Shown here: piece by piece, positions 36,480 through 37,986 of the stretch
Numbering within the stretch: position 1 is the stretch's first letter
Layout: each line of letters starts with the position of its first letter
Assembly (NCBI RefSeq): GCF_000008545.1
Contig: NC_000853.1
Location: forward strand, 1,254,465 to 1,318,464
Length of the DNA: 64,000 bases
Source: Thermotoga maritima MSB8
Lineage (GTDB): Bacteria; Thermotogota; Thermotogae; Thermotogales; Thermotogaceae
Direction of reading: 5' to 3'
Position numbers and translations under genes: made by a program
The notes under the pieces: generated by a model
What the model was told of the DNA's origin: nothing
Database searches by the model: none
The model's input: the letters and a program-made list of their open reading frames with translations, nothing else

Positions 36480-36546
36480 ATTTTACCACTTCTTAGTTTC
36501 CAGGTTTTCTTTGTGTGATTTCACATGGTTTGTTAAGAAATGTTAA
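36480..36546 (-). promoter_or_regulatory. pst operon promoter with PhoP-box-like repeats
   Basis: On the minus strand two exact TTAACA hexamers (36546-36541 and 36536-36531) are ten bases apart, with weaker copies ATGTGA (36526-36521) and ACACAA (36516-36511) continuing the same spacing. This matches the TTAACA-N4/5 repeat pattern of Gram-positive PhoP boxes. A TAAAAT -10 box sits at 36485-36480 with no recognisable -35, as expected for an activator-dependent promoter. Confidence 0.72.
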
Positions 36547-36556
36547 GCCGACTCTT

Positions 36557-36645
36557 CGTTCTGAAAGAGAACGATTTTGTGAGACTATCGTTCTATAACA
36601 GAACGGAAAATAGAATTCTACGAAAAATCGTTCTTTTTGAGAACG
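36557..36645. promoter_or_regulatory. Array of three identical-arm palindromes, CGTTCT-N5-AGAACG
   Basis: Three 17-base inverted repeats with identical arms and different spacers: 36557-36573 (spacer GAAAG), 36589-36605 (ATAAC) and 36629-36645 (TTTTG). Starts are 32 and 40 bases apart, about three and four helical turns. A fourth half-site CGTTCC is at 36661-36666, and a perfect TAGAATTCTA at 36611-36620 lies between sites two and three. The last site overlaps the -35 region of the ATPase promoter and the first is next to the PhoP-like boxes of pstS. Confidence 0.85.
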
Positions 36646-36650
36646 TTTTG

Positions 36651-36659
36651 TGCTATAAT
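36651..36659 (+). promoter_or_regulatory. Extended -10 promoter of the AAA+ ATPase gene
   Basis: TGC followed by a perfect TATAAT (36654-36659) is an extended -10 element. The -35 position (about 36631-36636, TTCTTT) is poor and lies inside the third palindrome. Transcription would begin near 36666, giving a leader of only about 17 bases. Confidence 0.65.
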
Positions 36660-36682
36660 TCGTTCCAGAGGAGGTGCATACT

Positions 36683-37846
36683 GTGTACGAGGAGATCATC
36701 GAAAAATTGGATCTCCAGATGAACAGAATGATCAGTTTTCTTTCAAAAAAGATGCGTCTCTTTTTCCAGGATCTGGAAAAGAGATTCACAAACAGGGCGA
36801 TCCTTCTCTACGGACCACGAGGTGCGGGTAAGACCACTTTTCTCCTGTCGATGGCAAGAAAGCACGGTTTTCTTTATGTTTCAGGAGATGAAATTCTCCT
36901 TCTGGACGTTCCACTACACGATCTTTTTCAGGAGATAATGAAAAATTATCCGGGCATCATCATCGACGAAGTTCACCTTCTGAAAAACTGGAGTACCATC
37001 CTTAAGGTTCTTTACGATAGCTTTCCCGACAAGGTTATATGGACGAGTGACAGCAGTTCCGTTCTCCTGAGAAAGGGAATATCAGATCTTTCGAGAAGAT
37101 TCGTTTTGATCAGAATGCCTCTGATGTCTTTTAGAGAATTCATCCACTTCGAAACTGGAAAAACTCTGAGGAAGCTGAGTTCTCCCTTTGAGGTCTCCAT
37201 CGATTACGCCGCCGAGGCTTTAAAAGAAGTGGACCTGATGAGTCTCTTCAGAAAATATCGAGAGACTGGAACAAGACCGTTCTATGTGGAAGGTAACTTC
37301 AGAGAGAAGTTAATGAACATCCTGCAAAAGGCGATCTACTACGATGTACCACACTTTCTTGGTACAGTAACAGAAAATCACCTTGGGGTCATGAAGGCAA
37401 TCGTCGGCCACCTCCTCCATTCAAAGATACCGACGATAAACGTTGAATCCATGTGCAGAGAATGGGGTGTTGGAAAACAAAAGTTTTATCAGTTACTACA
37501 AACAATGGAAGAAATAGAGCTTGTGAACATCGTGCGGAAAAAAAGGGTAGAAAAACCCTTTTCAAAAGGGGAAAAGATCTTCTTATCTGATCCTGCCATG
37601 TACTACGCTTTCGAGGGAGAAATTGGAAATTTCAGAGAGGCTTTCGTTGTCTTCGCATTGAAAGAGATCGGGAAAATATACGCTGTGAAAAACGAAGAAG
37701 AAGGAGATTACGTTTTCGAAGGAATAAAGATAGAAGTTGGTGGAAAGAGCAAGAAAAAGAAATCGAGTGACTTCGTGATAAGGGACGATGTCGATCTTCC
37801 CGTTAGAAATGTGATCCCGATGTGGATGCTGGGGATGTTGTGGTGA
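36683..37846 (+). CDS. AAA+ ATPase with winged-helix segment (AAA_14/DUF4143 type)
   Basis: A 387-residue protein. Walker A LLYGPRGAGKTTFLLSMA is near 39-56 and Walker B YPGIIIDEVHLLKNW near 93. After a helical region, VESMCREWGVGKQKFYQLLQ (about 255-275) looks like a winged helix-turn-helix, and the C terminus carries a PD-(D/E)xK-like stretch FEGIKIEVGGKSKKKKSSDF. GTG at 36683 follows AGAGGAGGT. Family members are common in Thermotogales and archaea, but their function is unknown. Codon use is slightly more AT-rich than the pst genes. The three palindromes upstream suggest tight control, possibly autoregulation. Confidence 0.82.
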   Translation: MYEEIIEKLDLQMNRMISFLSKKMRLFFQDLEKRFTNRAILLYGPRGAGKTTFLLSMARKHGFLYVSGDEILLLDVPLHDLFQEIMKNYPGIIIDEVHLLKNWSTILKVLYDSFPDKVIWTSDSSSVLLRKGISDLSRRFVLIRMPLMSFREFIHFETGKTLRKLSSPFEVSIDYAAEALKEVDLMSLFRKYRETGTRPFYVEGNFREKLMNILQKAIYYDVPHFLGTVTENHLGVMKAIVGHLLHSKIPTINVESMCREWGVGKQKFYQLLQTMEEIELVNIVRKKRVEKPFSKGEKIFLSDPAMYYAFEGEIGNFREAFVVFALKEIGKIYAVKNEEEGDYVFEGIKIEVGGKSKKKKSSDFVIRDDVDLPVRNVIPMWMLGMLW

Positions 37847-37866: not shown

Positions 37867-37872
37867 ATGAAC

Positions 37873-37986
37873 AGAAAGTGAGAAAAATCACAAACCTCCT
37901 GAGGTGGAGGGGAAAATCCTGACACCGGGGGAGGGGATGGATGGAAGTATACCCCTCTCCCGGCACGTGGAGAGGGGGTTTTCGTT
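37873..37986 (+). promoter_or_regulatory. Attenuator- or riboswitch-like leader upstream of the hydrogenase-maturation genes
   Basis: Three segments can pair in two exclusive ways. A (37925-37936, CCGGGGGAGGGG) pairs over 12 bases, one of them G-U, with B (37952-37963, CCCCTCTCCCGG). B (37952-37960) also pairs perfectly over nine bases with C (37969-37977, GGAGAGGGG), and C is followed by GTTTTCGTTTT. The B:C hairpin thus resembles a terminator and also buries the ribosome site eight bases before the TTG at 37987. Upstream, CCTCC at 37895-37899 can pair with GGAGG at 37906-37910 or with GGAGG inside A. I do not match it to any riboswitch class I know. Confidence 0.68.

Follow-up and report, generated by a model that had tools for sequence, protein, structure and literature searches.

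The ATPase gene and its surroundings

The window analysed here, a stretch of 64,000 nucleotides from Thermotoga maritima MSB8, carries a gene for an AAA_14 ATPase which, going by gene order, we take to be TM1265; the gene next to it matches the Pfam family TM1266-like. The GTG at 36683 was preferred as start codon over the GTG at 36674 because of its Shine-Dalgarno spacing and because the start aligns in G001, the other of the two Thermotoga species that have the gene. The features of the locus, in window positions, are:

36557..36573, no strand: candidate operator site S1, CGTTCTGAAAGAGAACG, kept in G001 with a different spacer
36589..36605, no strand: candidate operator site S2, CGTTCTATAACAGAACG, 32 bp after S1
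36629..36645, no strand: candidate operator site S3, CGTTCTTTTTGAGAACG, 40 bp after S2, covering the -35 region of the ATPase gene
36654..36659, plus strand: -10 box TATAAT (extended, TGCTATAAT) serving the ATPase gene, located where 13 bp separate S3 from S4, at the same position in orthologs
36661..36677, no strand: degenerate candidate site S4, CGTTCC plus an eroded right arm, 32 bp downstream of S3, register taken from the ortholog layout, over the expected transcription start
36683..37846, plus strand: AAA_14 ATPase, 387 amino acids, probably TM1265
37373..37585, plus strand: winged-helix region, residues 231-301, from an AlphaFold2 model; proposed operator-binding domain
37475..37513, plus strand: predicted recognition helix, residues 265-277, from the AlphaFold2 model and the alignment

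The protein matches PF13173 (AAA_14) at 1.9e-22, and its Walker A (GPRGAGKTT) and Walker B (IIIDEVH) motifs are intact. The AlphaFold2 model, built from 26 aligned orthologs (mean pLDDT 89), has winged-helix topology. A fold search with this model returned generic AAA+ matches only, with the best balanced TM-score of about 0.45 for archaeal SSO1545 (2fna); ORC-like and RuvB-like folds are among the neighbors. The DUF4143 profile did not match the window ATPase and gave weak or partial matches in its relatives. In its sub-family, a conserved D..EVGG stands where nuclease-like DUF4143 relatives have D..ExK. Since DUF4143 is not detected and the catalytic ExK is replaced, the sequence makes nuclease activity doubtful in this sub-family. 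A search of open-access papers found no literature on the gene.

The leader of the TM1266-like gene (37868-37986) is strongly structured (z = -4.3) and precedes both this gene and two radical-SAM genes (HydG/HydE-like). Its core, CTGAGGTG-AGG...CTGACACC, is invariant and is followed by apparent alternative pairings and an intrinsic terminator. Among Thermotogota, 30 loci (L188-L217, upstream of orthologs) contribute 23 different sequences with this core, and comparison with Rfam families yielded no convincing match. By its sequence features, the leader resembles a riboswitch or attenuator of a kind not described so far.

A palindrome array at a single promoter

The window contains three perfect CGTTCT-N5-AGAACG sites with starts at 36557, 36589 and 36629, i.e., at distances of 32 and 40 bp, exactly as the initial annotation had described them. 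The fourth half-site that it had noted beside the ribosome site does exist as sequence, but it is part of a complete, though degenerate, site that starts in register at position 36661. As this start lies exactly 32 bp after that of S3, the layout in the window is S1-32-S2-40-S3-32-S4. S4 is intact in orthologs of other genera (among them L044, L047, L048, L050 and L056). Within one site, the arm centers are 11 bp apart. A distance of 11 bp amounts to one helical turn and 32 bp to three turns on the same face; simple arithmetic on the distances of 32, 72-73 and 104-105 bp, corresponding to about 3, 7 and 10 turns, thus places all sites roughly on one face of the DNA.

The hexamer counts of the window give a chance expectation of 0.69 perfect sites for the 1.86-Mb genome, and the probability of finding three within 89 bp is about 2.5e-10. 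Scanning the genome for the motif, as had been suggested, revealed a single perfect site outside the array, located within the coding frame of an ABC-ATPase, and 29 sites with one mismatch, every one of which lies inside a long reading frame. Perfect sites elsewhere thus occur at chance level, no regulon extends beyond the ATPase promoter, and the idea of a genome-wide regulon was rejected. The array marks one promoter.

Comparison of the T. maritima array with that of G001 showed that 33 of 36 arm positions are identical, as opposed to 6 of 15 spacer positions (Fisher P = 0.0002). Conserved arms with changing spacers support the earlier proposal that all sites are under selection for binding of a dimeric protein. 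The perfect TAGAATTCTA reported between the sites is indeed present, between S2 and S3 (36611-36620), but is not conserved in G001. A reading of the repeats as RNA hairpins was rejected because S1 to S3 are situated upstream of the -10 box and because the arms covary as DNA palindromes. Comparison of the site region with Rfam gave nothing above threshold.

The array accompanies the ATPase gene across Thermotogota

Relatives of the ATPase are present in 42 of 103 Thermotogota genomes, and the arrangement of sites at distances of 32-40/41-32 bp recurs upstream of nearly all orthologs of 43-99% identity; the spacers change, as do the arms in part. Comparing the array across relatives had been recommended, and the arms proved conserved. 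The refuting condition named in the initial annotation, a random frequency of the motif and arms not kept by related species, thus failed on both counts. Orthologs from Thermotogales and Petrotogales have four sites, while a Kosmotogales-like group has S3 and S4 only (the group names are our own reading). The last two sites flank the -10 box in the orthologs, as S3 and S4 do in the window, which bears out the earlier view that S3 covers the -35 region of the ATPase gene. Exceptions are L042, which retains a single site, and L043, which ends at a contig end. Gene neighbors are mostly not common to the loci beyond the genus, and no widely shared gene adjoining the ATPase loci was found at that distance.

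The linkage was also assessed with a blind pattern, GTTYN7RAAC-N17-GTTYN7RAAC, sought in the 103 genomes irrespective of the ATPase. This two-site search returned 37 places, compared with none for a reversed control. About 30 of these are at an ATPase gene or a relic of one, two are at contig ends (G069 and G007), two belong to one and the same orphan array in G084, and three are unrelated (G045, G078 and G094).

The orphan in G084 (L106, G084:C1:780518-780637) is a four-site array with distances of 32-41-32 bp and no ATPase gene alongside; it is probably a remnant after loss of the gene. In G003 (L021/L016, G003:C9:210141-210400), which belongs to the window's genus, a broken ATPase copy remains that has lost its promoter, its start and most of the sites by a deletion. 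Viral contigs yielded fragmentary ATPase relatives only, and phage records a single one. Overall, the distribution of the ATPase is patchy, with many relics. Fast gain and loss of the gene would fit these relics, the orphan array and the occurrence of several ATPases in clusters.

Related ATPases have other codes at similar spacing

The T. maritima genome encodes a second ATPase, of the AAA_14/DUF4143 type (L026/L155, G000:645818-647206). Upstream of it lie palindromes of its own, TTATCGAACCAATTCGATAA and TTATCGAATGAGATAGATAA (TTATCGA-type), 32 bp apart, and among its relatives the palindromes are of the TTTGGTCA, TTGTGCA or TTATGGA type at a spacing of 32-33 bp. Homologs on Bacteroidota and Campylobacterota records, 25-42% identical, show further codes, again as paired palindromes at like spacing.

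For a quantitative view, distances of 22-60 bp were scored against shuffled sequences for 43 homologs that are less than 70% identical to each other, a sample drawn from one phylum and from plasmid records. In 29 of the 43, a paired palindrome beat 95% of the shuffles; at the resolution used, significant pairs were missing in about a third. The best distance was 31-34 bp for 28 of the 43, compared with 11.5% in the shuffles (binomial P ~1e-16, a value that overstates the strength because the score was designed after the first cases had been seen). Among control upstream regions of the window, 4 of 46 reached P ≤ 0.05 in an earlier version of the test, which is near the chance number.

Two ATPases with different operator codes per genome were found in T. 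maritima, G071 and G093; in G093 and G071, the two genes, belonging to different sub-families, lie a few kilobases apart, each with its own code. Such distinct codes within one genome would not be explained by a shared host regulator, while self-recognition would account for them. Note that five to six P-loop ATPases (AAA_14/DUF4143, ATPase_2/DUF234 and KAP-like) adjoin each other in islands at L185 (2048-12912) and L186 (2097-12340), where several promoters carry distinct repeats. Extension of the 32-bp rule to the ATPase_2/DUF234 and KAP-like members of these islands was unsupported, and the spacing was not seen at the one canonical DUF4143 copy examined there.

Operator divergence tracks the helix-turn-helix core

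In 22 non-redundant Thermotogota, operator divergence correlated with that of the helix-turn-helix (HTH) core when the AAA domain was controlled for (partial Mantel r = 0.37, P = 0.004) and also when the C-terminal domain was (r = 0.35, P = 0.004). Divergence of the AAA domain, with the C-terminus controlled, gave no signal. Addition of two homologs from outside the Thermotogota lowered the values to r = 0.28 (P = 0.01) and r = 0.23 (P = 0.05). Helix 3 by itself predicted the operator sequence less well (P = 0.05) than the whole HTH core. Several protein segments were tried in this comparison and the signal is moderate. Sequence and model together predict that the operators are bound by the ATPase's own winged helix. 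The suggestion in the initial annotation that a winged-helix-like segment might serve autoregulation has thus gained support from the modelled domain at residues 231-301 and from the co-divergence with the HTH core.

Proposed autorepression by spaced dimers and its alternatives

In principle, the array could serve the ATPase itself, a separate regulator, or a purpose other than transcription. The reading we favor, with a probability of roughly 0.8, is that the palindromes are operators of the ATPase, which would sit across its promoter as dimers at a fixed spacing and repress it. We infer this from the position of the two sites that are retained most widely, one over the -35 region and one over the start site, as expected of a repressor that excludes RNA polymerase; it is likewise the site position in the sequence that points to repression rather than activation.

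In an alternative scenario, a separate and widely conserved host regulator, e.g., one for stress or defence, binds the sites and controls the ATPase genes. The sites do resemble ordinary dimer operators, and assigning the ATPase as binder is a step of interpretation. Such a regulator is nevertheless unlikely, given that no widely shared gene accompanies the loci, that the site occurs at no other T. maritima promoter, that the array is missing from genomes without the ATPase, and that ATPase sub-families sharing a genome differ in code yet keep the 32-bp geometry. Slightly less probable still is a role of the array mainly as an iteron- or centromere-like docking or maintenance site, with the ATPase acting as a selfish or defence element and repression as a by-product. 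The ORC-like and RuvB-like fold neighbors, the regular same-face spacing and the patchy occurrence with many relics and the orphan array in G084 would suit this role, whereas the two sites with the widest conservation lie on either side of the -10 box in the manner of repressor sites, and the T. maritima gene is chromosomal with no replication or partition gene adjoining.

A connection with phosphate supply had been considered possible. In its favor are the divergent promoters of the ATPase and pstS in one intergenic region and the closeness of S1 to the pho-type boxes. S1 was thought to touch the PhoP-type boxes of pstS; in fact these occupy 36530-36547 and S1 begins 9 bp beyond them. Two genomes of the window's genus (G004 and G005) and one of its family (G010) possess pstS with pho-type boxes and have neither the ATPase nor the sites, and elsewhere the sites adjoin other genes. 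Membership in the pstS phosphate regulon is accordingly very improbable, and the proposed link was abandoned.

Under autorepression by the ATPase, both arms of a palindrome would be contacted by one ATPase dimer, with a winged helix in each. Two such dimers at a distance of 32 bp would occupy the -35 region and the start site, one on each side of the -10 box, and keep RNA polymerase out. With the second, upstream pair of sites found in Thermotogales and Petrotogales, four dimers could line up on one face across some 105 bp. The ATPase would repress solely itself. A trigger (invading DNA, perhaps) or the ATP state could change the oligomeric state and thereby release the promoter; the nucleotide state is the obvious candidate for relief of repression. 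Much more tentatively, AAA_14/PDC-S01-type ATPases across phyla might be self-gated sensors, in which a spaced pair of dimers on a private code shuts the protein's own promoter; a cue such as invading DNA would bring about ATP-dependent release, by which the gene is induced and an effector set free.

Comparison with known systems

LexA, LacI and similar autorepressors have palindromic operators over the core promoter and repress by occlusion. The palindromes described here resemble these in lying over the ATPase's own core promoter. They differ in forming an array of four sites in a fixed 32-40/41-32 register, in that the presumed binder is an AAA+ ATPase, and in that relatives keep the geometry while the sequence code changes.

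Antitoxins of the AbiEi type are autoregulated and bind several inverted repeats at the promoter of their own operon (PMC7319586). They share with our case a winged-helix protein, a set of inverted repeats spanning the promoter it is expressed from, and regulation of one operon. Unlike them, the window ATPase has no adjoining toxin gene, and its DNA-binding domain resides within an AAA+ ATPase.

The ATPase family overlaps the phage-defence candidate PDC-S01. The window ATPase matches its PADLOC model PDLC04789 at 4.5e-18 (residues 31-306), and the second T. maritima copy matches PDC-S01 at 1e-42. In PMC12988326, PDC-S01 ranks fourth among the most common (putative) defence genes of prokaryotes and is described as an ATPase with a fused PD-(D/E)XK-type domain; experimental validation is said there to be pending for most candidates of this kind. 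A search of open-access papers found no description of operators for the AAA_14/PDC-S01 family, and the passages of PMC12988326 consulted describe neither an operator nor autoregulation for it. Common to both are the AAA_14 ATPase, the single gene and the patchy distribution; they differ in that the window ATPase has EVGG where the nuclease-like DUF4143 relatives have ExK. PDC-S01-type ATPases are very common, and with a DNA ligand predicted for single members, consisting of a code and a fixed geometry, their function is now open to binding experiments. The operator code may help to define sub-families and to spot active copies and, if the ATPase regulates itself, its operator could serve as a reporter in the search for the trigger.
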